Part shown: piece by piece, positions 21,907 to 52,818 of the stretch
Layout: each line of letters begins with the position of its first letter
Numbering within the stretch: the stretch's first letter is position 1
The notes under the pieces: generated by a model
Seen by the model: only the letters and a program-made list of their open reading frames with translations
The model's database searches: none
Told to the model about the DNA's origin: nothing
Position numbers and translations under genes: made by a program
NCBI RefSeq assembly: GCF_016025255.1
Contig: NZ_CP065592.1
Coordinates: 973,122-1,037,121, forward strand
DNA length: 64,000 bases
Source: Sphingosinicella flava
GTDB taxonomy: Bacteria; Pseudomonadota; Alphaproteobacteria; Sphingomonadales; Sphingomonadaceae
Reading direction: 5' to 3'

Positions 21907-22272
21907 CACCCTTCAAGCGATTCAATATGAGGATGCGAATATGCCGCCCCTCCCGAAATCCTTCGGAAACGGCGGTTTTCCGCATGACCGCTCCTGGTTC
22001 CCCCTGTCGCGGCTTGCGGCCTGATAGCCGCCCCCATGCCGCTTTGCCAACAGCGATTTTCGCAGGGAAGCTCCTCCCCCTTGATGGGGGAGGCTGGGTG
22101 GGGGTGATCTACGACGTAAAGCGGAGTGTTTCCGGAGGCATCACCCCCACCCAACCAGCGCCGGGTCGGCCATGCCCCCGGCATGGCCTGAACAGCGCGG
22201 GGCGCTGTTCATCCGACACTTCCATCAAGGGGGAGGGCTTTATGGATCGAAGTTTTGAATTAAGGGCAACAC
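21907..22272. other. Intergenic region between petA and trmL
   Basis: The 366 bp between the divergent petA and trmL genes must contain both promoters. Most of the right-hand part is a family A repeat element (22071-22240), which leaves about 160 bp next to petA and only 32 bp next to trmL. I see no RNA gene or convincing consensus promoter here. Confidence 0.6.
22071..22240. repeat. Family A palindromic element, copy A1 (long form)
   Basis: Left arm CTCCCCCTTGATGGGGGAGG then CTGGGTGGGGGTGAT; the right end mirrors it with ATCACCCCCACCCAA and finally CATCAAGGGGGAGGGC. The centre shares ATCTACGACGTA and TTCCGGAGGCATCACC with copy A3. Compared with A2 and A3 it has an extra segment of about 60 bp near the right end that itself contains two nested palindromes (GGCCATGCC..GGCATGGCC and AACAGCG..CGCTGTT). 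It ends just before trmL. Confidence 0.85.
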
Positions 22273-38959: not shown

Positions 38960-41509
38960 ATGGCTAAAAAGGCAGCCGATCCCCTCGCCCGATACAAGGC
39001 CAAGCGCGATTTCACGAAGACCGCCGAGCCCGCGGGCCGGGTGGAGGCGACCGGCAAGAACATCTTCATGGTGCAGAAGCATGACGCGACGCGGCTCCAC
39101 TATGATTTCCGGCTGGAGCTGGACGGGACGCTGAAGAGTTGGGCGGTGACGCGGGGGCCGAGCCTCGACCCCGCCGACAAGCGCCTTGCGGTCAGGACGG
39201 AGGATCATCCGATGTCCTATGCGACGTTCGAAGGCACGATCCCCAAGGGCCAATATGGCGGCGGCACCGTTATGCTGTGGGATCGCGGCACCTGGACGCC
39301 GGAACCCGGCAAGGATCCGCGCGAGACGCTGGAGAAGGGCCATCTCCACTTCAGCCTGGACGGCGAGCGGATGAAGGGCGAGTGGATCCTCATCCGCCTC
39401 AAGCCGCGTCCCGGCGAGCGGAACGAGAATTGGCTGCTGCGCAAGATCGAGGACGTGCATGCGGGCAGCTCGGTCGGGCTGACCGAGAAATATCTGACTT
39501 CCGTCAAGACCGGCCGGACGATGAACGAGATTGCGGAAGGCGACGATCCGCCTTGGAACAGTGATCGGGCGGAAAAGTCTCCTCCCCGGGACGGGGAGGG
39601 GGACCAGCCGAAGGCTGGTGGAGGGGCTGGCCGGAAGTCCGCGAAAACCCCTCCACCGCGCTCCGCGCGGTCCCCCTCCCCGTCCCGGGGAGGATTGAAG
39701 CTCCCGGCCTTTCGCGAGGTGCAGAAAGCCACCCTCGTCGATCATGTGCCGAGCGGCTCGGCCTGGTTGCACGAGATGAAGTTCGACGGCTATCGCTGTC
39801 TCCTCGCCATCGCGGAGGGCCAAGCGAAAATCTACACGCGCACCGGGCTCGACTGGTCGGATAAATTTCCGGAGATCGTCGCGGCCGCGCAGGAACTGGA
39901 AGTCGGCTCCGCACTGATCGACGGCGAGATCGTGAAGGTCGACGACAAGGGCAGTACCAATTTCTCCGCGCTTCAACAGGCGATCAGCGAGGGCGGCAAG
40001 GGCCTGACCCTGTTCGCCTTCGACCTTCTCGAGGTGGACGGCGAAGATTTGACGCGCCTTCCCAATATCGACCGGAAGCAACGGCTGTCCTCCCTGCTCG
40101 GCGAAGGCAAGCCGCCCTTCATCCTCTATGCCGATCACGTTATTGGCGCCGGCGAGAAGCTGTTCGACGCGATGTGCGATGCTGGACAGGAAGGCATCAT
40201 CTCGAAAAAAGCCGACGCGCCCTATCGGGGCACGCGCACGAAGAGCTGGCTCAAGATCAAATGCACGCGGCGCCAGGAGTTCGTGATCGTCGGCTGGACG
40301 CCGAGCGAGAGCAAGGCGCGAGCGCTTCGCGCCTTGCTGCTGGCGGTCCATGAGGTCGGCAAGCTGCGCTATGTCGGCAAGGTCGGCACCGGCTTTTCGA
40401 TGGCGACACTCCAAGACCTGCTCGGCAGGCTGAAAAAGCTGGAGACGAAGGAGGCGCCGGTCGCGGTGCCGCGATCGGAATCGCGTGGGGCGCATTGGGT
40501 GAAACCGGAACTGGTGGCGGAGGTCGCCTTCGCCGAATTTACCGGCGAGGGATCAGTGCGCCACGCGAGTTTCCTCGGCCTGCGCGACGACAAGCCGGCT
40601 GAAGCGGTGGTCGAGGAAAAGCCGCAGCCGATGCCTGAAACAGCGGGCGACGATGTGAAGATCAGCAATCCCGATCGCGTCATCTTCCCCGACGCCAACG
40701 TCACCAAGGGGCAGCTCGCCGATTATTACCGCGCCGTAGCGCCCTTGATGCTCGAATGGGTGAAGGAGCGGCCGATCAGTCTGGTCCGCTGTCCGCAGGG
40801 ACGGGCGAAGAAATGTTTCTTCCAGAAGCATGATGCGGGCACGTTCGGCACCCACGTCCACCATGTGCCGGTGCTGGAAAAACGCGGGAATACGGAAGAT
40901 TATCTTTACGTCACCGACCAGGCCGGGCTGCTCACCTGCGTGCAGATGGGAACGATCGAGTTTCACGGCTGGGGATCGCGCGTTGCCGATATCGAGAAGG
41001 CCGACCGGCTGATCTTCGACCTCGATCCCGACGAAGGATTGGGTTTCGAGGCGGTCAAGAAGGCGGCGGTGGATCTGAAGGGGCACCTTGCCGACATGGG
41101 CCTTCAGACCTTCCCGCTGCTGACAGGCGGTAAGGGGTTGCACATCGTCGTGCCGCTGGCACCCAAAGCGGAATGGCCAGAGGTGAAGGATTTCGCCCAG
41201 CGCTTCGCCCTTGCCTTGTCGGAAGCGGAGCCGGAGCGCTTCACCGCCAACCTCGCCAAGGCGAAACGGAAAGGCCGGATCTTCCTCGATTACCTGCGCA
41301 ACCAACGTGGGGCGACGGCGATCATGCCTTACTCCGCCCGATCACGCGAGCATGCGCCGGTGTCGGCGCCGATCAACTGGAACGAGCTGGACGAAATGGA
41401 TAGCGGCGGGCGCTTCACGGTGAAGGACGTGGACCTGCTGCTGAAGCGCGCGTCGGGGCGCCTGCTCCAAGGCTGGGGCGAGGCGGAGCAGGTGCTGCCG
41501 GACCTTTGA
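38960..41509 (+). CDS. ligD: DNA ligase D (phosphoesterase, ligase and polymerase domains)
   Basis: The 849-aa multidomain enzyme seals Ku-bound breaks. Order here: 3'-phosphoesterase (HYDFRLELDG, about residues 40-190), ATP-dependent ligase with nucleophile K274 in EMKFDGYRCLL, its OB part, and a primase-polymerase (RLIFDLDPDEGLGFEAVK, GGKGLHIVVPLAP). Between the first two domains, residues about 207-245 come from a family B palindromic element read in frame (SPPRDGEGDQPKAGGGAG and PPPRSARSPSPSRGG). The reading frame is open, so the protein is probably functional with a long low-complexity linker. Confidence 0.94.
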   Translation: MAKKAADPLARYKAKRDFTKTAEPAGRVEATGKNIFMVQKHDATRLHYDFRLELDGTLKSWAVTRGPSLDPADKRLAVRTEDHPMSYATFEGTIPKGQYGGGTVMLWDRGTWTPEPGKDPRETLEKGHLHFSLDGERMKGEWILIRLKPRPGERNENWLLRKIEDVHAGSSVGLTEKYLTSVKTGRTMNEIAEGDDPPWNSDRAEKSPPRDGEGDQPKAGGGAGRKSAKTPPPRSARSPSPSRGGLKLPAFREVQKATLVDHVPSGSAWLHEMKFDGYRCLLAIAEGQAKIYTRTGLDWSDKFPEIVAAAQELEVGSALIDGEIVKVDDKGSTNFSALQQAISEGGKGLTLFAFDLLEVDGEDLTRLPNIDRKQRLSSLLGEGKPPFILYADHVIGAGEKLFDAMCDAGQEGIISKKADAPYRGTRTKSWLKIKCTRRQEFVIVGWTPSESKARALRALLLAVHEVGKLRYVGKVGTGFSMATLQDLLGRLKKLETKEAPVAVPRSESRGAHWVKPELVAEVAFAEFTGEGSVRHASFLGLRDDKPAEAVVEEKPQPMPETAGDDVKISNPDRVIFPDANVTKGQLADYYRAVAPLMLEWVKERPISLVRCPQGRAKKCFFQKHDAGTFGTHVHHVPVLEKRGNTEDYLYVTDQAGLLTCVQMGTIEFHGWGSRVADIEKADRLIFDLDPDEGLGFEAVKKAAVDLKGHLADMGLQTFPLLTGGKGLHIVVPLAPKAEWPEVKDFAQRFALALSEAEPERFTANLAKAKRKGRIFLDYLRNQRGATAIMPYSARSREHAPVSAPINWNELDEMDSGGRFTVKDVDLLLKRASGRLLQGWGEAEQVLPDL
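39580..39694. repeat. Family B element, copy B1, in frame inside ligD
   Basis: TCCTCCCCGGGACGGGGAGG and GGGACCAGCCGAAGGCTGG on the left, and the mirrored GGTCCCCCTCCCCGTCCC and GGGGAGGA on the right, with about 20 bp in the middle. Left arm matches the arm beside the DUF559 gene over about 47 bp with one difference. It has no gene inside. Confidence 0.88.
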
Positions 41510-41513
41510 ATAG

Positions 41514-41539
41514 GTGTATTGTAAAAACAATACACTTTT
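41514..41539 (+). terminator. Terminator after ligD
   Basis: GTGTATTGT(AAAA)ACAATACAC followed by TTTTC, starting five bases after the ligD stop. Its low G+C content differs from the other terminators here; it might also act as an operator for the next operon. Confidence 0.7.
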
Positions 41540-41601
41540 CCCCTTGCGCTGAATGGCCCAAAAGCCCCATCTTCACCCTCGAACAACCAAGGGGTTAGCG
41601 C

Positions 41602-42792
41602 ATGGCCACTGAAACCAAGCTGAAACTGGAAGCTCCGGACGTCGTGGCGCCGATCGAGCCCGCCGAGGCCGCGGGTCTGGTGCCGCTGAAGGCGGAGGAA
41701 AAGACCGCGCTTGAATCCAAGGTGGACAGCTTCATCACCGATCTCGTCGCGCTCGACGCCAACAGCCCGGATTTCGGCAAGAAAGTGGATCAGCTGACCA
41801 CCATGGGCCGCAAGGAAATCGCGGAAGCCGCCGGTCATTCCAACCGCTTCCTCGACCGGCCGGTCAAGGCGATCGACAGCGACACCGGCATCGGATCGGA
41901 TCTCACCAAGCTCCGCAAGACGGTGGAGGAATTGGACCCCGGCCGGGGCGGCGCGCTCACCAAGCCGCGCAAGATCCTGGGGATCATTCCGTTCGGCAAC
42001 CGGATGCGCAGCTATTTCATGAAATATCAGTCCGCGCAGACCCATATTTCGTCGATTCTCGCCAGTCTCGCGTCGGGCAAGGACGAGCTTCTGATGGACA
42101 ATGCCGCCATCGACGTCGAGCGGGCAAACCTGTGGAAGACCATGGGCAAGCTCGAGCAGATGATCCACATCTCCAAGACGCTCGACCAGAAGCTTGAGGA
42201 CAAGGCGAACGAGCTCGATGCGACCGAGCCCGCCAAGGCCAAGGCGATCCGGGAAACGGCGCTTTTCTACACGCGCCAGCGGACCACAGACCTGCTGACC
42301 CAGATGGCGGTCAGCGTGCAAGGCTATCTCGCGCTCGACTTGGTCAAAAAGAACAATGTCGAGCTGGTGAAGGGCGTGGATCGCGCATCGACGACGACCG
42401 TCGCGGCACTCCGCACGGCGGTCACGGTGGCACAGGCGCTGACCAACCAGCGGCTGGTGCTCGATCAGATCAGCGCCCTCAATACGACGACCGCGAACAT
42501 GATCGACACGACGGGCACGTTGCTCAAGAGCCAGTCCGGCGAAATCCACAAGCAGGCCGCGTCCGCGACCATACCGCTCGAAACCCTGCAGCGCGCCTTC
42601 CAGAACATCTACGAGACGATGGATACGATCGACCGGTTCAAGGTCGAGGCCCTGGGCAACATGAAGCAGACGGTGAACGTCCTGTCGTCCGAAGTCGAAA
42701 AGAGCCGGGGCTATATCGCCAGGGCGGAAGGCGTGGAGCAGAACAAGCTGGCTGGGCCCGCGGAATCGCCGTTCACGGCGCTTGAGGGGTAA
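41602..42792 (+). CDS. TelA/KlaA-like toxic anion resistance family protein
   Basis: The 396-aa, mostly helical protein belongs to the TelA family (named for tellurite resistance; present in many bacteria without tellurite genes). Family-typical segments are NPDF-like NSPDFGKKVDQLTTMG, SNRFLDRPVKAID, LGIIPFGNRMRSYFMKYQSA and QRTTDLLTQMAVSVQGYLAL. It has no signal or membrane segment. It is the first gene of an apparent three-gene operon with two membrane proteins. Confidence 0.88.
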   Translation: MATETKLKLEAPDVVAPIEPAEAAGLVPLKAEEKTALESKVDSFITDLVALDANSPDFGKKVDQLTTMGRKEIAEAAGHSNRFLDRPVKAIDSDTGIGSDLTKLRKTVEELDPGRGGALTKPRKILGIIPFGNRMRSYFMKYQSAQTHISSILASLASGKDELLMDNAAIDVERANLWKTMGKLEQMIHISKTLDQKLEDKANELDATEPAKAKAIRETALFYTRQRTTDLLTQMAVSVQGYLALDLVKKNNVELVKGVDRASTTTVAALRTAVTVAQALTNQRLVLDQISALNTTTANMIDTTGTLLKSQSGEIHKQAASATIPLETLQRAFQNIYETMDTIDRFKVEALGNMKQTVNVLSSEVEKSRGYIARAEGVEQNKLAGPAESPFTALEG

Positions 42793-42793
42793 A

Positions 42794-43531
42794 ATGGCGC
42801 GCACGCCCCGCCGCGTCGAAGACACCCTCGCCCGCTTCGACGAGATCAGCGCGCGGCTGGACGGCCATGCGCCCTCCACGCGGGCGGCGGCGCGGCGGCA
42901 TTACGGACGGTCGGCGCGATCGCTTGGAAAACGCGTGGGAGCGATGACGGCAGCGATCGGCGCCCTGATCGTCGCGACAATCGGCTTCGGCTGGATCGTC
43001 GGGCCGATCGGCATCGGCGGCCTGTTCCTGGTGGCGCTCGCCATCATCTTCATCCTCATCTTCATGTCGGTCTGGCCGGGCGAGAAGGCGGAGAAGCCCT
43101 ACACGCAGGACATGTCGAACCGGCAAGTGGTGAGCCGCCTCGATTCCATCCTGCACCTGAAGCGCCCTGCCCTTCCCTCTCCCGCCGGGCGCCGGGTCGA
43201 TGCGATCTCCGCGCAGCTGCCGCTGCTCGAATCCCGGCTGGGCGAGCTCGACGCGCTCGATCCGCTGGCGCAGGATGCGCGGCGGCTGATGGGGCAGCAT
43301 CTGCCCGAGCTGATCGAACGCTACGAACGTGTGCCGCCCGCCTACCGTCAGCAGCGCGACGGCGAGGGTCTCACTGTCGACGAGCGGCTGGTCGCGGGTC
43401 TCGACGCCGCCAAGACCGCGCTCGACGATCTCGGCGCCCGGTTGACGCGCGGCGATCTCGACGCCTTCGAGACGCAGGGCCGCTTCATCGAGAGCCGCTA
43501 CAAGGACGACGGAGGCGTCGGGGGCCAGTGA
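42794..43531 (+). CDS. Membrane protein of the telA operon, XpaC-like (first paralogue)
   Basis: The 245-aa product has a basic N-terminus, a hairpin of two transmembrane segments (MTAAIGALIVATIGFGWIVG and GGLFLVALAIIFILIFMSV, residues 51-95) and a cytoplasmic helical C-terminal half. Its C-terminus, from LESRLGELD to FETQGRFIESRYKDD, matches that of the next gene product. This architecture fits the XpaC-type proteins that accompany TelA in other bacteria, but the assignment is by architecture and context only. Its GAGGGG ribosome-binding site lies in the end of the telA-like gene. Confidence 0.72.
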   Translation: MARTPRRVEDTLARFDEISARLDGHAPSTRAAARRHYGRSARSLGKRVGAMTAAIGALIVATIGFGWIVGPIGIGGLFLVALAIIFILIFMSVWPGEKAEKPYTQDMSNRQVVSRLDSILHLKRPALPSPAGRRVDAISAQLPLLESRLGELDALDPLAQDARRLMGQHLPELIERYERVPPAYRQQRDGEGLTVDERLVAGLDAAKTALDDLGARLTRGDLDAFETQGRFIESRYKDDGGVGGQ

Positions 43532-44226
43532 TCGGTCTGGGCGAGGCTTTCGACGCGGCCGAGACGTTCCTTCGGAAGCACATCAAATCCAAAGCGGTTC
43601 GCGCGGCCGAGAAACGGCGCAAGGAACGCAAGCGGCATGAAGCGGCCCGGAAGTTCGGGCGGGCGGCGACCGCTACCGCCGTGTCGGGCGGAAGCATCGC
43701 TGCCTACAGCCTCGCCGTCGCCCCGCTTGCGACGCCGCTCCTGCTGGCTGGCGGCGTGGCGACGGTGGGGCTCGCCGTTCTTGCGGCACGCTGGCAAGGC
43801 CGGACGCTCAAGGGCTTTTCGCGGGAGGAGTTGACCGCTCTTCCCGGCAAGGCCGAAAGCTGGCTGCTCGACCTGCGCGAACGGATGCCGCGCGAAGCCG
43901 GAGACCCTCTCGACCGCGTGCTATCGCGGCTTGGCGACCTGCAGCCGCAATTGGGCGAGATCGACCCCAATTCGACCCTCGCCTGGGACGCGCGGCGGCT
44001 GATCGGCGACCACCTGCCCCGCCTCGTCCGTTCCTATTGCGAGCTGCCCGCGCACGCCCGGGCGGAGGATCCGAGCTTCGCCTACCGCCTTGCCCAGGGC
44101 CTCGACACGCTGGCGGACGAGCTTGGCGACCTGTGCACCCAGGTGAGCCGCGACCGCCGCCTGACCTTCGAGGCGCATCAACGCTTCATCCAGAGCCGCT
44201 ATCGCGACGACATCAAGGCGGAGTGA
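43528..44226 (+). CDS. Membrane protein of the telA operon, XpaC-like (second paralogue)
   Basis: The 232-aa product has a basic helical N-terminus (RAAEKRRKERKRHEAARKFG), two transmembrane segments (AATATAVSGGSIAAYSLAVA and LLLAGGVATVGLAVLAARW) and a C-terminal region similar to the preceding protein: LGEIDPNSTLAWDARRLIGD and FEAHQRFIQSRYRDD align with LGELDALDPLAQDARRLMGQ and FETQGRFIESRYKDD. It starts with GTG overlapping the previous stop (GTGA). Function unknown; probably partner of the TelA-like protein. Confidence 0.7.
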   Translation: MIGLGEAFDAAETFLRKHIKSKAVRAAEKRRKERKRHEAARKFGRAATATAVSGGSIAAYSLAVAPLATPLLLAGGVATVGLAVLAARWQGRTLKGFSREELTALPGKAESWLLDLRERMPREAGDPLDRVLSRLGDLQPQLGEIDPNSTLAWDARRLIGDHLPRLVRSYCELPAHARAEDPSFAYRLAQGLDTLADELGDLCTQVSRDRRLTFEAHQRFIQSRYRDDIKAE

Positions 44227-45061
44227 TCATTAGGCCGAGCGTGCGCCGGGCCTGCACGAGGTGCGGCCGGTCGATCATCTTGCCGTCGAGGGACAGCGCG
44301 CCGACGCCAGGATTGGCGGCGAAGGCGTCGACGATCGCCTGGGCATGGGCGATCTCCACCTCGGACGGGGTGAAGGCGGCGTTGATGACCGGCACCTGCG
44401 CCGGGTGGATCGCCATCATGCCGGTGAAGCCGTCGCGGCGGGCGCGGGCGGCATAGGCGGCAAGGCCGTCGAGGTCGCGGAAGTTCGGATAGACGGTCTC
44501 GATCGGCGCCACGCCCGCCGCCGCCGCGCCGAACAGGCAGAGAGAACGGGCGAGTTCGTAAGGCGGCGTGAGGCTGCCGTCTTCCTCGCGAGAAGTGGCG
44601 GCGCCAATGGCCGCAGGGAGGTCTTCGGCGCCCCAGGTGAGGGCTTCCAGTCTCTTGGCCCCGCCATAGGTGCCGAGCTGGAAAATGGCGGCGGGGGTTT
44701 CGGTCGCGATGGCGAGGATGCGGGCGGTGGCGTTGCCCATCATCGTCAGCCGGTGCGCCAAGGCGTCCACGGAGGCGCCGCCTTCGGCCTTCGGAAGGAC
44801 GACCCCGTTCGGCCGGACAGAGGCGAGCGCGTCGAGATCCTTGTCCGCCTCCCCTCCATCGAGAGGATTGATGCGCACCCAGAGATGGGCGGCAGGGTGA
44901 GCGGAAACGAAATCGGCGACAAGACGACGCGCCTCGGGCTTCTTCTCGGGCGCAACGGCATCCTCGAGATCGAGGATCAGCGCGTCGGCGCCGAGGCCGA
45001 GCGCCTTTTCCATCCGTTCGGGGCGGTCGCCCGGAACGAAGAGGAGGGAGCGGAGCTTCAT
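44213..45061 (-). CDS. HpcH/HpaI aldolase / CitE-like CoA ester lyase
   Basis: The 282-aa TIM-barrel enzyme of the CitE/malyl-CoA lyase family starts LRSLLFVPGDRPERMEKAL and shows ALILDLEDAVAPEKKPEAR (metal-binding Glu/Asp) and the Arg-containing RINPLDGGEADKDL. Family members cleave or condense acyl-CoA substrates such as malyl-CoA, citramalyl-CoA or HMG-like esters. Lying beside MaoC and leucine-degradation genes suggests catabolic use, but the substrate cannot be told. It overlaps the end of the telA operon by 14 bp. Confidence 0.85.
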   Translation of the reverse strand: MKLRSLLFVPGDRPERMEKALGLGADALILDLEDAVAPEKKPEARRLVADFVSAHPAAHLWVRINPLDGGEADKDLDALASVRPNGVVLPKAEGGASVDALAHRLTMMGNATARILAIATETPAAIFQLGTYGGAKRLEALTWGAEDLPAAIGAATSREEDGSLTPPYELARSLCLFGAAAAGVAPIETVYPNFRDLDGLAAYAARARRDGFTGMMAIHPAQVPVINAAFTPSEVEIAHAQAIVDAFAANPGVGALSLDGKMIDRPHLVQARRTLGLMITPP

Positions 45062-45079
45062 TGGCCGCGCTCCAAGAGG

Positions 45080-45188
45080 CCCCTCCCCCTTGATGGGGGA
45101 GGCTGGGTGGGGGTGATGGCTGGGCTAGGTTCGGTGCAGGCGGAGAGATCACCCCCACCCAAGCCTCCCCCATCAAGGGGGAGGGCTT
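45080..45188. repeat. Family A palindromic element, copy A2
   Basis: CCTCCCCCTTGATGGGGGAG then GCTGGGTGGGGGTGAT on the left, mirrored by ATCACCCCCACCCAAGCC and CCCCATCAAGGGGGAGGG on the right, with about 38 bp between. It occupies nearly the whole gap between the lyase and MaoC genes. Confidence 0.85.
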
Positions 45189-45200
45189 TGAAAGGGGGGG

Positions 45201-45653
45201 TCACGCCGGTCTCCTTTGCATCAGGGCAGTACGTTCGCAGATGCAGACGAGTTCGTCGCGCTGGTTGAACATGCGATGCTCGAAGGTCGCGATGCCCGCA
45301 TCCGGGCGGCTTTTGCTGTCCTTCAAGGCGATCACTTCGGTTTCGGCGCGCAAAGTATCGCCGATGAAGACGGGCTTCGGCATCCGCACCTTGTCGTAGC
45401 CGAGATTGGCGACGAGCGTGCCAAGCGTGGTGTCGCCCACGGACAGGCCGATCATCAGCGCGAAGGTGAAGGTGCCGTTGACGACGATCCGGCCGAACTC
45501 CGTCGCGCCCGCATATTCGGCGTCGAGATGCAGCGGCTGCGGATTGTGGGTGAGCGTCGAGATGAGGAGATTGTCGGTTTCCGTCACCGTGCGGTGCGGC
45601 TGGTGCGTCAGCCGGTCGCCGACCTGCCATTCATCGTAAAAGCGCCCTGCCAT
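45201..45653 (-). CDS. MaoC family dehydratase
   Basis: The 150-aa hot-dog-fold protein resembles MaoC-type hydratases: an N-terminal FYDEWQVGDRLTHQPHRT, the catalytic-region NPQPLHLDAEYAGATEFG, and VNGTFTFALMIGLSVGDT. Members hydrate enoyl-CoA esters such as mesaconyl-CoA. It lies between the CitE-like lyase and the carboxylase alpha-subunit gene, all on the minus strand. The substrate is not known; it could stand in for the usual enoyl-CoA hydratase of leucine breakdown. Confidence 0.85.
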   Translation of the reverse strand: MAGRFYDEWQVGDRLTHQPHRTVTETDNLLISTLTHNPQPLHLDAEYAGATEFGRIVVNGTFTFALMIGLSVGDTTLGTLVANLGYDKVRMPKPVFIGDTLRAETEVIALKDSKSRPDAGIATFEHRMFNQRDELVCICERTALMQRRPA

Positions 45654-45783
45654 TGCCTGCTAAATCCCGTGAAGTTGATGAAATTGATGCTGTGGCGAAG
45701 TTTTTCAGTTTCCTTTCCCGCATCACCGGAACCGGCGACGGCCCGATGGTGGCAGGAAGCACGCGTGTAGGACAGCCTTTTTA

Positions 45784-45892
45784 TCCTCCCCGGTACGGGG
45801 AGGTGGCAGCGCATAGCGCTGACGGAGGGGCTGGTAAGAAGTTCCGAGCAACCCCTCCACCATGCTTCGCATGGTCCCCCGTGCCGTGAGGA
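45784..45892. repeat. Family B element, copy B2 (diverged)
   Basis: TCCTCCCCGGTACGGGGAGG on the left, CCCCTCCACCATGCTTCGC and ATGGTCCCCCGTGCCGTG with AGGA on the right, about 109 bp in all, with no gene inside. The right arm has more differences than B1. It ends at the stop codon of the carboxylase alpha-subunit gene. Confidence 0.75.
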
Positions 45893-45893
45893 T

Positions 45894-47818
<1,925 letters not shown>

Positions 47819-47822
<4 letters not shown>

Positions 47823-48229
47823 TCAAAATCCTCCCCGGCACGGGGAGGGGGACCAGCCGCAGGCTGGTGGAGGGGGCCCGAGGCCCGGCACCATTCGATT
47901 ATGCTCGTCACAACACCCTCTATATTCTGCAGCACGTCGCGTGCGGGAAAGCGGATGGTGTTGAAGCCGACTTGGATCAGCTGTTGATCTCTCACCCGGT
48001 CGCGTTCAACCCGATCTTCGCGTTCATGGGCTTCGCCGTCGATCTCAATTCCTAGCCGTGCTTCCAAGCAGGCGAAATCCAGAATGTAGCCGCACTGCGG
48101 GAGCTGGCGGCGAAACTTGAATCCTCCGGGCCGCCGCTTCAGTTCGCGCCAGAGCAGGACTTCGGGAAGGCTCATTTCTTTGCGAAGTGAACGGGCTCTT
48201 TTGACCAGCTTGATTGGGGAAGTGAGCAC
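47819..48229 (-). CDS. DUF559 endonuclease-domain protein inside an inverted-repeat element
   Basis: The product (about 136 aa from a GTG at 48229) carries the Vsr/PD-(D/E)XK-like DUF559 pattern: MSLPEVLLWRELKRRPGGFK, FRRQLPQCGYILDFAC (catalytic-type Asp) and LGIEIDGEAHE (Glu and Asp), then VGFNTIRFPARDVLQN. The reading frame stays open upstream into the left repeat arm (PRNGEGDQPKAGGGG), so the true start is uncertain. Its last residues (PAAGPPPRAGEDFE) are encoded by the other arm and its stop overlaps the next gene. The gene is wholly contained in the element 47829-48284 apart from the stop region. Nuclease activity is predicted from family resemblance only. Confidence 0.72.
47829..47879. 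repeat. Family B arm, copy B3
   Basis: Left inverted arm of the DUF559 element; it includes the 3' end of that gene. Confidence 0.88.
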
Positions 48230-48233
48230 TATA

Positions 48234-48284
48234 GGGCCCCCTCCACCAGCCTTCGGCTGGTCCCCCTCCCCGTTCCGGGGAGGA
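48234..48284. repeat. Family B arm, copy B4
   Basis: Right inverted arm of the DUF559 element, 22 bp before the stop of the carboxylase beta-subunit gene. Confidence 0.88.
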
Positions 48285-48305
48285 TTTCTAGGTTGGCGCT
48301 CATCG

Positions 48306-49901
48306 TCACATCCGGAAGATGCCGAACTGGGCGCGTTCGGGGATGGGGGCGTTGAGGGTGGCGGCGAAAGCGAGACCGAGGACGTCGCGGGTTTGGGCGG
48401 GGTCGATGATGCCGTCATCCCACAGGCGGGCGGTGGCGTAGTATGGGTTGCCTTCGTCTTCATATTTTTGGCGGATCGGGGCTTTAAAGGCTTCGGCTTC
48501 TTCGGCGCCCCAAGTCTCGGCGTCGCGGTGGACGGTGGCGAGCACGCTCGCTGCTTGTTCGCCGCCCATCACGCTGATCCGGCTGTTCGGCCAGGTGAAG
48601 AGGAAGCGCGGGCTATAAGCCCGGCCGCACATGCCGTAATTACCGGCGCCGAAGCTGCCGCCGATCAGCACGGTGATCTTGGGCACCTGCGCGGTGGCGA
48701 CAGCGGTGACGAGCTTGGCGCCATGCTTGGCGATCCCTTCCGCCTCATATTTGCCGCCGACCATGAAGCCCGAAATGTTCTGGAGGAACAGGAGGGGTGT
48801 GCGGCGCTGGCAGGCGAGTTCGATGAAATGGGCGCCCTTTTGCGCGCTTTCGCTGAACAGGATGCCGTTATTGGCGAGGATCGCGACCGGCATGCCCCAG
48901 ATGCGGGCGAAACCGCAGACGAGGGTCGAGCCGTAGAGCGGCTTGAATTCGTGGAATTCGCTGCCGTCGACGATGCGGGCGATGACTTCGTGCACGTCAT
49001 AGGGGGTGCGGACATCGTCGGGGATGATGCCGTACAGGTCTTCGGCGTCGAATTTCGGCGGGACCGGATCGGCGATGTCGATGTCCAGCGCCTTCACCGT
49101 GTTGAGGCGGGCCACGATGTCGCGGACGATGGCGAGGGCGTGCTCGTCATTTTCGGCGAGGTGATCGACCACGCCGGACTTGCGGGCGTGGAGGTCGCCG
49201 CCGCCGAGATCCTCGGCGCTGATCACTTCCCCCGTCGCGGCCTTCACCAGCGGGGGGCCGCCGAGGAAGATCGTGCCCTGATTGCGGACGATCACCGTCT
49301 CGTCCGACATTGCGGGCACATAGGCGCCGCCCGCGGTGCAGCTGCCCATCACGCAGGCGATCTGGGCGATGCCTTGGGAGGACATCTGCGCCTGGTTGAA
49401 GAAGATGCGGCCGAAATGCTCCTTGTCCGGGAAGACTTCCGCCTGGTGAGGAAGGTTCGCGCCGCCTGAATCGACCAGATAGACGCAGGGCAGCAGGTTC
49501 TGGAGGGCGATCTCCTGGGCGCGCAGGTGCTTCTTCACCGTCATCGGGAAGTAGGCGCCGCCCTTCACGGTGGGATCGTTGGCGACGATCATCACCTCGC
49601 GGCCCGACACGCGGCCGATGCCGCAGATCATGCCGGCGCCGGGCGCCTCGTCGCCATACATGCCGCTCGCGGCGAGCTGGCCGATTTCAAGGAAGGGCGA
49701 GCCGGGATCGAGGAGGCGTGTGACTCGGTCGCGCGGCAGCAGCTTGCCGCGCGAGACGTGGCGTTCGCGATGCTTTTCGGGACCACCCTGCGCGGCCTGT
49801 GCCGCCTTGGTCCGGAGTGCGTCCACGAGGCCGCGATTATGTTCGGAGTAGCGTCGGAAGGCGTCGGAGCCTTCGTCCACTTTCGAGGTGAGAGCCGTCA
49901 T
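48306..49901 (-). CDS. liuB: Acyl-CoA carboxylase carboxyltransferase subunit, methylcrotonyl-CoA type
   Basis: The 531-aa beta subunit transfers CO2 from biotin to the acyl-CoA. It shows [37 protein letters not shown] (typical for methylcrotonyl-CoA carboxylase), [17 protein letters not shown] and [20 protein letters not shown]. Length and motifs fit MccB/LiuB. It belongs with isovaleryl-CoA dehydrogenase upstream and with the biotin subunit downstream, from which it is separated by the DUF559 element. Its start overlaps a small membrane-protein gene (ATGA). Confidence 0.93.
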
Positions 49902-50152
49902 GCAGGTTTTTTCCTGATCAGATAGCGGTAGACGCCGACGAGATTGATGCAGAGGAGGATGGCGTTCTGCGTCCAGAGCGCGCCTTCTTCATCGGTGAGC
50001 CCATAGACGATGAAGGCGATGGACGAGGTGCAGAACAGCACCATCGCATAGCCGGTGACCTTGCGGCCGAGGTCGAGCGCGACGAGCAGGGCGGCGAAGG
50101 CCGCGCTTCCGGCCGCATACCATTCGACGATTTCGACGAGTTTCTGGCTCAC
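49898..50152 (-). CDS. 84-aa membrane protein within the leucine cluster
   Basis: Three hydrophobic segments ([58 protein letters not shown]) in a protein of 84 residues, arranged like small PQ-loop-related or SemiSWEET-like proteins, but the diagnostic PQ pair is absent. It is coupled to liuB by a four-base overlap. Function unknown. Confidence 0.7.
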
Positions 50153-50161
50153 ATCTTCCCC

Positions 50162-50231
50162 GTCGCTCCGGCGAAAGCCGGAGTCTCAGTGTCCTTTCCG
50201 TGCCGAGATTCCGGCTGTCGCCGGAATGACG
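50162..50231. repeat. Family C mirrored repeat, copy C3
   Basis: CGTCGCTCCGGCGAAAGCCG then GAGTCTC on the left; GAGATTCCGGCTGTCGCCGG then AATGACG on the right. It lies upstream of the small membrane-protein gene. Confidence 0.72.
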
Positions 50232-50255
50232 CGGAAGGATTGGGGGTGGAAAGCG

Positions 50256-51410
50256 TCATGCGGCCCCGATCAGTTCGCGGCCGATCAGCATGCGGCGGAT
50301 TTCGTTGGTGCCCGCGCCGATGTCGAGGAGCTTGGCGTCGCGCATGTAGCGTTCGACCGGCCAGTCCTTCGTATAACCCGCGCCGCCCAGGGCCTGGATG
50401 GCCTCGAGCGAGGTTTTGACGGCGTTCTCGGACGCGAGCAGGATCGCGCCCGCGGCGTCGAAGCGGGTCGTCTTGCCGGCATCGCAGGCGCGGGCGACGG
50501 CGTAGACGTAGGCGCGGGCGCTGTTCAGCGCGACATACATGTCGGCGACCTTGGCCTGGATGAGCTGGAAGCTGCCGATCGGGTTGCCGAATTGCTTGCG
50601 CTCGCGGACGTAGGGAAGGACGACGTCGAGGCAGGCCTGCATGATGCCGAGCTGGATGCCGGCGAGCACGGTGCGCTCATAATCGAGGCCGGACATGAGG
50701 ACGCCGACACCGCCGTTGAGCGGACCCATGACATTTTCTTCGGGCACCTCGCAGTCGTTGAAGACGAGCTCCGCCGTCGGCGATCCGCGCATGCCCATTT
50801 TCGGGATCTTCTGGCCGATGGAGAAGCCGGGCATGTCCTTTTCGATGATGAAGGTGGTGATGCCCCGGCTCCCCTCGCCCGTCTTGGCGTAGACGACGAG
50901 CGTATCGGCATAGGCCGCATTGGTGATCCAGAATTTGGTGCCGTTAAGGACGTAGCGGTCGCCCTTCTTTTCCGCGCGCATCTTCATGCCGACGACGTCG
51001 GACCCGGCGCCCGCTTCGGACATGGCGAGGGAGCCGATATGTTCGCCGCTGATGAGCTTGGGGAGATATTTCGCCTTCTGCTCCGGCGAGGCCCAGCGAC
51101 GGATCTGGTTGACGCAGAGGTTCGAGTGGGCGCCGTAGCTGAGGCCGATCGAGGCGGAAGCGCGGGCGATCTCCTCTTGAGCGACGACATGTTCGAGATA
51201 GCCGAGTCCGAGCCCGCCAAATTCTTCCTCCACCGTGATGCCGTGGAGGCCGAGCGCGCCCATTTCGGGCCAGAGTTCGACCGGGAACCAGTCTTCCTCG
51301 TCAATGCGGGCCGCGAGCGGCTGGATGCGGTCGGCGGCGAAACGGGCGGTGGTGTCGCGGATGGCATCCGCCATCTCGCCGAGCGCGAAATCGAGTCCGA
51401 AGTCGGACAT
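50256..51410 (-). CDS. liuA: Isovaleryl-CoA dehydrogenase
   Basis: The 384-aa FAD enzyme oxidises isovaleryl-CoA to 3-methylcrotonyl-CoA, the substrate of the carboxylase. It has the acyl-CoA dehydrogenase segments SYGAHSNLCVNQIRRWAS, LAMSEAGAGSDVVGMKMRA, the likely catalytic Glu in MSGLDYERTVLAG (the position used by isovaleryl-CoA dehydrogenases rather than by short-chain enzymes), and QALGGAGYTKDWPVERYMRD. It begins the leucine catabolic gene group on this strand. Confidence 0.92.
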   Translation of the reverse strand: MSDFGLDFALGEMADAIRDTTARFAADRIQPLAARIDEEDWFPVELWPEMGALGLHGITVEEEFGGLGLGYLEHVVAQEEIARASASIGLSYGAHSNLCVNQIRRWASPEQKAKYLPKLISGEHIGSLAMSEAGAGSDVVGMKMRAEKKGDRYVLNGTKFWITNAAYADTLVVYAKTGEGSRGITTFIIEKDMPGFSIGQKIPKMGMRGSPTAELVFNDCEVPEENVMGPLNGGVGVLMSGLDYERTVLAGIQLGIMQACLDVVLPYVRERKQFGNPIGSFQLIQAKVADMYVALNSARAYVYAVARACDAGKTTRFDAAGAILLASENAVKTSLEAIQALGGAGYTKDWPVERYMRDAKLLDIGAGTNEIRRMLIGRELIGAA

Positions 51411-51504
51411 GTGCAGCCTCTCCCTTATTTTGATCCGGCCCTAGCGAAGGGGAAGGATTTGAACAAGGCGGCAAGGCGGCTTATGTGCAGTGCAACATTC
51501 ACTT

Positions 51505-51615
51505 CTCCTCCCCCTTGATGGGGGAGGCTGGATGGGGATGATCTACGACGTAGGGCTCGTTCCTTCCGGAGACATCACCCCCATCCAACCCTCCCCCATC
51601 AAGGGGGAGGGCTTT
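51505..51615. repeat. Family A palindromic element, copy A3
   Basis: CTCCCCCTTGATGGGGGAGG then CTGGATGGGGATGATC on the left; ATCACCCCCATCCAACC and CTCCCCCATCAAGGGGGAGG on the right. The interior shares ATCTACGACGTA and TTCCGGAG.CATCACC with A1. It lies in the divergent promoter region between isovaleryl-CoA dehydrogenase and thiolase. Confidence 0.86.
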
Positions 51616-51633
51616 AGATACGGAGCCTTTCAC

Positions 51634-52818
51634 ATGACCGATCCAGTCGTCATTCTTTCCTATGCCCGCACGCCGATGGGCGCGTTTCAGGGCAGTTTGT
51701 CGAGCGTCAGCGCGCCGGAGCTTGGCGCGGTCGCGGTGAAAGCCGCCGTCGAGCGCGCGGGGATTTCGACCGACGATGTCGAGCGCATCTATATGGGCTG
51801 CGTGCTGTCCGCGGGCCTCGGTCAGGCGCCCGCGCGGCAGGCGGCGATCAAGGCGGGACTGCCGAAGAATGTGGAGGCCGTCACCATCAACAAGATGTGC
51901 GGTTCGGGCATGAAAGCGGCGATGATGGCGGCCGATTCCATCGCGGCGGGATCGAGCGACATCATCATCGCGGGCGGCATGGAGAGCATGACCAACGCGC
52001 CCTACCTCATGAAGAAGCATCGCGGCGGCGCGCGGATCGGCCATGACGCGATTTACGACCATATGATGCTGGATGGTCTGGAAGATGCCTATGAGCCGGG
52101 CCGGGCGATGGGCACTTTCGCCGAGGATACGTCGCGCGAATATCAGTTCACGCGCGAGGCGCAGGATGCCTATGCGATCGAGTCGCTCGCGCGCGCCGTG
52201 AAAGCGCAGGATAGCGGCGGATTCGACAAGGAAATCGTGCCCGTCACCGTCAAGACCCGCGCGGGCGAAGAGGTGGTGAGCCAGGACGAAAGCCCGAAGA
52301 AGGGCAAACCCGAAAAAATCCCGTCGCTGAAGCCCGCTTTCGCCAAGGACGGCACGATCACCGCGGCGACGTCATCGTCGATCAACGATGGCGCGGCCGC
52401 CCTTGTTCTGGCGCGCGAATCCGTCGCGGCAGCCAAGGGGCTGAAGCCGGTGGCGCGAATCGTCGGCCACACCGCCCACGCCCGCGAGCCGGAGAAATTC
52501 ACCACCGCCCCGATCGGCGCGGTCGAGCGGCTGCTGGAAAAGACCGGCTGGAAGGTCGAGGATGTCGACCTGTTCGAGATCAACGAAGCCTTCGCCTGCG
52601 TGTCGATGGCCGCGATGCGCGACCTCGGCATTCCGCACGAAAAGGTGAACGTGCATGGCGGCGCGGTTGCGCTCGGCCACCCGATCGGCGCCTCTGGCGC
52701 GCGCATCCTGTCCACCTTGCTCGCCGCGCTTGAGCGGACCGGGGGCAAGCGGGGCATTGCCAGCCTTTGCATCGGCGGCGGCGAAGCCACCGCGATGGCG
52801 GTTGAGCTGGTGGATTGA
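51634..52818 (+). CDS. Acetyl-CoA C-acetyltransferase (thiolase)
   Basis: The 394-aa thiolase condenses or cleaves acetoacetyl-CoA. The acylated Cys is in INKMCGSGMKAAMMA, the general-base His in GGAVALGHPIGASGAR, and the second Cys in SLCIGGGEATAM. The start at 51634 (MTDPVVILSYARTPMGAFQG) is the usual one; it lies 18 bp after the A3 repeat. Beside leucine-degradation genes it probably handles acetoacetyl-CoA released by that pathway; a role in polyhydroxybutyrate synthesis is also possible. Confidence 0.94.
   Translation: MTDPVVILSYARTPMGAFQGSLSSVSAPELGAVAVKAAVERAGISTDDVERIYMGCVLSAGLGQAPARQAAIKAGLPKNVEAVTINKMCGSGMKAAMMAADSIAAGSSDIIIAGGMESMTNAPYLMKKHRGGARIGHDAIYDHMMLDGLEDAYEPGRAMGTFAEDTSREYQFTREAQDAYAIESLARAVKAQDSGGFDKEIVPVTVKTRAGEEVVSQDESPKKGKPEKIPSLKPAFAKDGTITAATSSSINDGAAALVLARESVAAAKGLKPVARIVGHTAHAREPEKFTTAPIGAVERLLEKTGWKVEDVDLFEINEAFACVSMAAMRDLGIPHEKVNVHGGAVALGHPIGASGARILSTLLAALERTGGKRGIASLCIGGGEATAMAVELVD

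Follow-up and report, generated by a model that had tools for sequence, protein, structure and literature searches.

Genes for DUF559 nucleases are usually flanked by inverted copies of a repeat that belongs to their own nuclease clade. This pairing of arm and nuclease is real, clade-specific and widespread, and it concerns the DUF559 family at large, beyond the one element found in the window (the whole stretch of 64,000 nucleotides analysed here). With a probability of roughly 60%, the unit is a self-flanked selfish element with a homing-like mechanism: a system resembling REPIN/RAYT that uses a homing-like nuclease, with gene-free arm pairs as its derivatives.

The window element has two inverted arms of 54 nt with 2 mismatches (52/54 or 96% complementary) and a spacing of 354 nt. 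A single ORF lies between them on the minus strand, from a GTG at 48229 to a stop at 47819. Its product of 136 aa is a Pfam DUF559 protein (PF04480, E 4.8e-28). The gene start adjoins the right arm and the last ~18 codons lie inside the left arm; the arm-encoded C-terminal tail is a low-confidence part of the structure model. A first-pass annotation of the sequence had described near-identical inverted ends of 51 bp with two differences, one DUF559 gene between them, a gene 3' end encoded in one arm and two gene-free arm relatives elsewhere in the window. Each of these observations was confirmed, the arms being 54 nt long and the relatives comprising one close pair and one diverged single unit. 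The features are:

47826-47879, plus strand: left arm, read from outside to inside; inverted repeat with 48234-48287
47830-47848, plus strand: left-arm hairpin with pyrimidine stem CCTCCCC, loop and purine stem GGGGAGG (hairpin scan and sequence)
47852-47868, plus strand: second hairpin of the left arm, forming the linker, ACCAGCC-GCA-GGCTGGT (sequence reading)
47869-47875, plus strand: left-arm tail GGAGGGG, a candidate third strand that mirrors the purine stem GGGGAGG (sequence reading and mirror statistics of 262 arms)
47819-48229, minus strand: DUF559 nuclease gene, PD-(D/E)XK type (translation, Pfam PF04480 and fold)
48234-48287, minus strand: right arm, read from outside to inside on the minus strand; inverted repeat with the left arm
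48265-48283, minus strand: right-arm hairpin (hairpin scan)
48238-48244, minus strand: right-arm tail, GGAGGGG on the minus strand (sequence reading)
39581-39693, unstranded: gene-free inverted pair of the arm family of the window element, inside an ORF
45785-45803, plus strand: hairpin of the single diverged arm relative (hairpin scan)

An Rfam search of window positions 39400-51700 gave nothing at gathering score. The flanking genes (45894-47822 and 48306-49901) are carboxylase-like, by analogy with annotated genes in a similar locus on a plasmid. On a Sphingobium plasmid (L304, 1462-1896), an arm-flanked DUF559 gene adjoins a carboxyltransferase gene, much like the window site, and a carboxylase alpha gene is one gene away.

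PF04480 matches occur in 25 of the 26 genus genomes, at 1-10 per genome. Flanks were compared by scoring the inverted similarity of the two 180-bp zones that border each DUF559 domain, and a score of at least 34 was taken as a pair of arms. In a first genus batch, 83 of 93 testable domains (95 in all) reached this score, as did 5 of 1865 windows slid along these loci and none of 465 dinucleotide shuffles. Together with 20 further regions, the genus set comprised 116 domain hits at 114 loci (a split gene at L114 is counted twice), and arms were present at 96 of 111 testable domains; the test covers all but a few genus matches, mostly short or near an included one. The gene frame enters or passes the downstream arm in 86 of these 96 elements, and the stop codon lies inside the arm in 38. 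Among named genomes, the best 80 of 296 matches to the window protein were taken, with close relatives ranking first; 69 of 79 testable loci had arms, compared with 3 of 2899 slides, and at least three of the loci (L175, L188 and L195) are apparently already in the genus set. Judged by record titles, nine loci of this set are outside Alphaproteobacteria; six have arms (L199, L206, L208, L212, L213 and L214) and three do not (L205, L207 and L211). A class-wide sample of 29 loci from one genome each and five more from a single genome (G037) had arms at 22 of 34 loci, and none of 322 slides passed. The possibility, raised in the first-pass annotation, that DUF559 genes of the same clade usually lack such arms did not materialise in any of these sets.

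Seven plasmid loci were taken from 34 records with a DUF559 match and four passed, including one of Deinococcus (score 114) and one of the cyanobacterium Pseudanabaena (74); two further cyanobacterial loci scored 24 and 25. The pairing is also seen in other Alphaproteobacteria, Chloroflexota, Deinococcus and one cyanobacterium, and one-sided at ycjD of Escherichia coli. A phage collection yielded a single match (E 7e-7). The arms of an alphaproteobacterial DUF559 gene (L242, flanks of 1488-1821) are long, rich in AT and share a CCCCCTTTGAAAAAGGGGG core; they score 137.

The arms were clustered by similarity and mapped on the nuclease tree, which is built on 112 columns and has many unresolved forks. 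Eight groups with at least three members comprise 85 of the 96 arms and were mapped; the other 11 arms fall into smaller groups. The arm family changes 13 times on the tree, with a possible minimum of 7. The lowest numbers among shuffles were 49 changes (300 free shuffles) and 44 changes (300 within-genome shuffles). Sharing of a locus could make related genes share arms, so pairs without flank homology were examined. Arm and nuclease similarity correlated with a rho of 0.50 over 4309 such pairs, and with a rho of 0.46 over the 191 pairs from the same genome. At 60-70% identity, 56 of 113 pairs are in unrelated surroundings, with some flanks cut by contig ends. The nuclease and its matching arm therefore stay together across different places. 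Arms unassociated with DUF559 genes in other genomes had been considered at the outset as well; instead, arm and nuclease co-vary. A repeat family that matches the enzyme clade is a trait of REPIN/RAYT systems which DUF559 and its arms share.

Ordinary intergenic repeats or terminators might gather around any small spacer gene, and gene-free arm repeats are common in these genomes. We consider this passive neighbourhood barely credible: such arms surround only 1 of 250 neighbouring genes (ORFs of at least 100 aa), they turn up in 5 of 1865 slid windows, and within-genome shuffles fail to reproduce the match of clade and arm.

The number of gene-distant repeats was followed across the 26 genus genomes, after copies beside a nuclease gene had been removed by coordinates. 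One exact arm core was used for each of families C, D, E and G, which are four of the eight families A to H; family A is that of the window element. Copy number tracks the cognate nuclease in two of the four. At least one gene-distant core of family C was present in 8/8 genomes with the cognate clade vs 2/18 without it (p 2.9e-5); for family D, the numbers are 7/8 vs 7/18 (p 0.028). Core presence was not linked to the cognate clade for family E (3/7 vs 9/19, p 0.74) and family G (5/9 vs 6/17, p 0.28). G008 alone in the genus gave no DUF559 match, and none of the four cores occurs there as an exact copy.

The arms have a common order. From outside to inside, a pyrimidine stem is followed by a loop and a purine stem; next comes either a short linker or another hairpin, and finally a tail. 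The tail is the reversed purine stem, not its reverse complement, with A kept or replaced by T: GGGGAGG..GGAGGGG in the window, and GGGGGAGGG..GGGTGGGGG and GGGGAGAGGG..GGGAGAGGGG in other arms. Stem and tail were scorable in 262 of 330 arms, and 206 of the 262 are perfect mirrors. Shuffled tails gave a mean of 16 (maximum 26) and swapped tails a mean of 98 (maximum 115). Among 241 asymmetric stems, of which 122 are one and the same stem of family A, the mirror was better in 168, the direct order in 19, and 54 were ties. A direct repeat in place of the mirror was rejected; it is perfect in only 63/262 arms, and over 87 distinct combinations the mirror wins 45 to 11. A G-quadruplex as the common structure was also dropped, because the mirror fits more arms than the four G-tracts, which occur in 45/96 arms with short loops and 69/96 with long loops. 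On a Deinococcus plasmid (L302, flanks of 1512-1836) the arms are reversed, with the tail outside the hairpin.

A hairpin with a tail that mirrors its purine strand could fold, as a single strand, into a purine-motif intrastrand triplex. Judged by sequence, the arm families share this predicted layout, which is the published PIT/TMECO repeat type. The window arms have the purine-type order of pyrimidine stem, purine stem and purine tail in mirror order. They do not follow the exact TMECO pattern with 9-nt stems and a 3-nt second loop; the stem has 7 bp and a hairpin replaces the second loop. Intrastrand-triplex motifs are also associated with the names of Hoyne and Maher. Holder et al. (2015) described such motifs, with 23 TMECO copies in E. 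coli MG1655 and five inverted pairs; the accessible text reports that their surroundings contain no mobility genes and that a stable triplex was not supported in vivo (PMC4666352). The arms resemble these PIT elements in hairpin and mirrored purine tail, in their intergenic position and inverted pairing, and in the occurrence of motifs at E. coli ycjD. They differ from that account, which in its accessible part names no enzyme partner, in that every major arm family has a cognate DUF559 clade. The first-pass annotation knew of no description of the element. The repeat type had in fact been published; a link between DUF559 and such repeats was not found in the literature searched, which was largely without subscription papers.

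Four candidate catalytic residues, D51, E62, D64 and H68, are suggested by the family, and 105 of 108 genus DUF559 domains retain all of them. The invariant GGFKFRRQ in the alignment is partly an artefact of the search peptides. The model of the window protein has a mean pLDDT of 84. Foldseek ranked another DUF559 protein (3hrl) first, followed by I-Bth0305I, PvuRts1I, two mitoribosome chains and Vsr. I-Bth0305I (3r3p) is matched by profile (E 2.2e-4) and by structure (Foldseek E 5.4e-4, TM 0.77 by target); PDB profile rows at E of at least 0.47 were unrelated chains and were treated as chance. I-Bth0305I is intron-encoded, and we take it to be a member of the EDxHD family. It shares with the window protein the fold, a weak sequence relation and the situation of a lone nuclease gene in a unit that moves or, in the window, is predicted to move. 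Unlike I-Bth0305I, the window gene is a stand-alone spacer ORF with repeat arms and is not part of an intron or intein. Vsr may have a related fold (1vsr, Foldseek E 0.049, below the two mitoribosome chains); the window gene differs from it by having no adjacent methyltransferase gene and by the repeats on both sides.

PvuRts1I in the PDB searches, together with PADLOC matches that are weak and partial (DpdF at E 1.3e-4 is the best of them), might point to a defence or restriction nuclease that is flanked by repeats through coincidence. This is very improbable, as the PADLOC matches cover parts of much longer proteins and the window gene has no companion between its two carboxylase-like neighbours.

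The window and 24 relatives were compared at the host site, the spacer between mccB and mccA. The element is present in ten genomes (the window, G001, G002, G003, G007, G009, G010, G011, G014 and G022). G016 and G017 have a gene-free pair, and G018 and G024 have a single or decayed arm. Spacers of 8 and 13 nt without an insert were found in G004 and G012. Other DNA occupies the site in the remaining nine genomes, three of which lack the second gene in the compared stretch. In three of the ten genomes with the element (G002, G014 and G022) the nuclease gene is opposite to mccB. This orientation suggested repeated insertion, which was dropped, since the AU test does not reject a single clade of mccB-mccA nucleases (p-AU 0.599). 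The states of mccB-mccA can thus be explained by a single insertion together with inversion across the arms and loss of the gene. The comparison of empty sites proposed in the first-pass annotation gave a divided answer. Arm-free states exist, namely the short spacers of G004 and G012; a base-exact insertion edge or a target-site duplication was not seen at the compared sites, where the relatives are strongly diverged.

A possible single clade at mccB-mccA, as under vertical descent, would also be expected if DUF559 were a resident, immobile nuclease of host repair, Vsr-like or structure-specific, with the arms as binding sites or regulators that spread by other means. The fold matches include Vsr, which the YcjD profile is also reported to detect (PMC1189080), and Caulobacter VsrA has a DUF559 domain and a proposed role in very-short-patch repair (PMC12907096); the accessible parts of these accounts of YcjD and VsrA contain no link to repeats. 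We regard a resident repair enzyme as quite unlikely, given the 1-10 diverged copies per genome with an arm family each, and given the related pairs in unrelated surroundings.

In the homing-like reading, the unit is selfish and consists of a single DUF559 nuclease gene that has its cognate repeat on both sides, in inverted orientation. The nuclease would recognise the cognate arm, folded or single-stranded, and would nick or cut there. Repair would then copy arms into other sites, frequently in inverted pairs, and at times the gene as well. Gene-free arm pairs would be the non-autonomous derivatives, in a relation like that of REPINs to RAYTs. What was observed is the flanking association, the co-variation of arm and nuclease, the mirror layout, the conserved candidate residues, related units in non-homologous surroundings and presence or absence at one host site; recognition of the arm, cutting, a triplex in cells, movement and homing are inferred. 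The palindromic extragenic repeats, their inverted pairs, the single dedicated enzyme gene next to the repeat family that belongs to it and the co-variation are all REPIN/RAYT-like. The window enzyme is a PD-(D/E)XK-type nuclease, unlike the Y1/HUH transposase of REPIN/RAYT; a mirror tail is present in the arms here, and several DUF559 genes per genome are usual. The unit is thus not a REPIN/RAYT member, though working alike, because the defining transposase is absent. A GTAG/CGTC tag beside the palindrome is a published REP/RAYT trait (PMC3733652, in the accessible text). The first-pass reading, in which an element codes for a nuclease of another protein family, resembles RAYT/REP in layout and has gene-free derivatives, is supported by the usual presence of arms, their co-variation with the nuclease and the arm-free host sites.

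DUF559 might itself excise a folded-strand arm pair and insert it elsewhere, as in RAYT-like transposition, with no copying left to repair. Close gene-free inverted pairs with starts ~88 nt apart are REPIN-like, and one enzyme per repeat family has been described for RAYTs (PMC3116915, as far as accessible). The PD-(D/E)XK fold, with its relation to a homing endonuclease and a possible one to Vsr, makes such transposition unlikely. We know of no covalent strand-transfer chemistry for PD-(D/E)XK enzymes alone.

Several results count against the homing-like reading. They include families E and G without a copy-number link, the sufficiency of a single mccB-mccA insertion, the missing exact edges and the DUF559 domains without arms at score 34 (15/111, 10/79 and 12/34). 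From E. coli, they include the one-sided motif at ycjD, the matching places in strains without the gene (below) and a motif that has no in vivo triplex signal in the accessible account (PMC4666352).

TMECO-like motifs occur at the 3' end of ycjD, the DUF559 gene of MG1655, and again ~200 bp further on. With 23 copies per genome, the chance of a TMECO within 300 bp of ycjD is ~0.005. An inverted arm pair around ycjD was not found (inverted score 16). A ycjD match is present in 3365 of 5426 genomes. A set of 60 records spread evenly down the ranking was selected and 58 were used, after removal of a partial replicon (H212) and a 154-kb record (H245). Matching places had a median of 12 (5-23) in 37 genomes with ycjD and of 3 (1-11) in 21 genomes without it (p 8e-9, with lineages that are not independent). 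O157:H7 strains without ycjD still have ~10 matching places. Between fabI and sapF (compared in L284, 5204-5761, and L285-L292), E. coli has the gene and its motifs where other lineages have a TetR gene and efflux genes, which are also described in the accessible text of PMC12817139. As the eight regions compared have a TetR and an efflux gene at this place, ycjD-less E. coli were rejected as clean empty sites.

A wider proposal is more tentative and falls somewhat short of even odds: DUF559 may be the missing partner of bacterial intrastrand-triplex repeats, in a bacteria-wide, RAYT-independent replicator whose homing-type nuclease would read and spread a triplex arm. The results suggest that triplex-prone repeats, long unexplained, would gain a dedicated enzyme partner. 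With a matched nuclease, it would become directly testable in E. coli K-12 how these repeats arose, how they spread and how they affect genome stability, and a role would be suggested for a widespread family whose label is still 'unknown function'. Enzyme-linked palindromic repeats would then have arisen with two unrelated enzyme folds.

The 2.42-Mb genome of the window has five DUF559 genes. Four of them, including the window gene, have inverted palindromic arms, each of another family; the fifth (L002) has palindromes only downstream. DNA of the window element matches ~12 genome sites, itself in or out, as grouped by hand from the listed match places, and five of the others are close pairs without the window gene. 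Gene-free copies in inverted pairs, a REPIN/RAYT trait, are represented by 39581-39693 and by pairs of families C and D. The pair 39581-39693 is in frame within an 849-aa ORF (38960-41509, plus strand) that looks like a LigD-type DNA ligase. It is missing at that place in G012 and G022, and G004 has one. Units of family F, the arm family of DUF559 gene L004, occur in the window as pairs and singles at 22073, 23580, 45082-45184, 51507-51611 and 56920. The pair at 45082-45184 is absent in four of five relatives, the four with both flanks matched.
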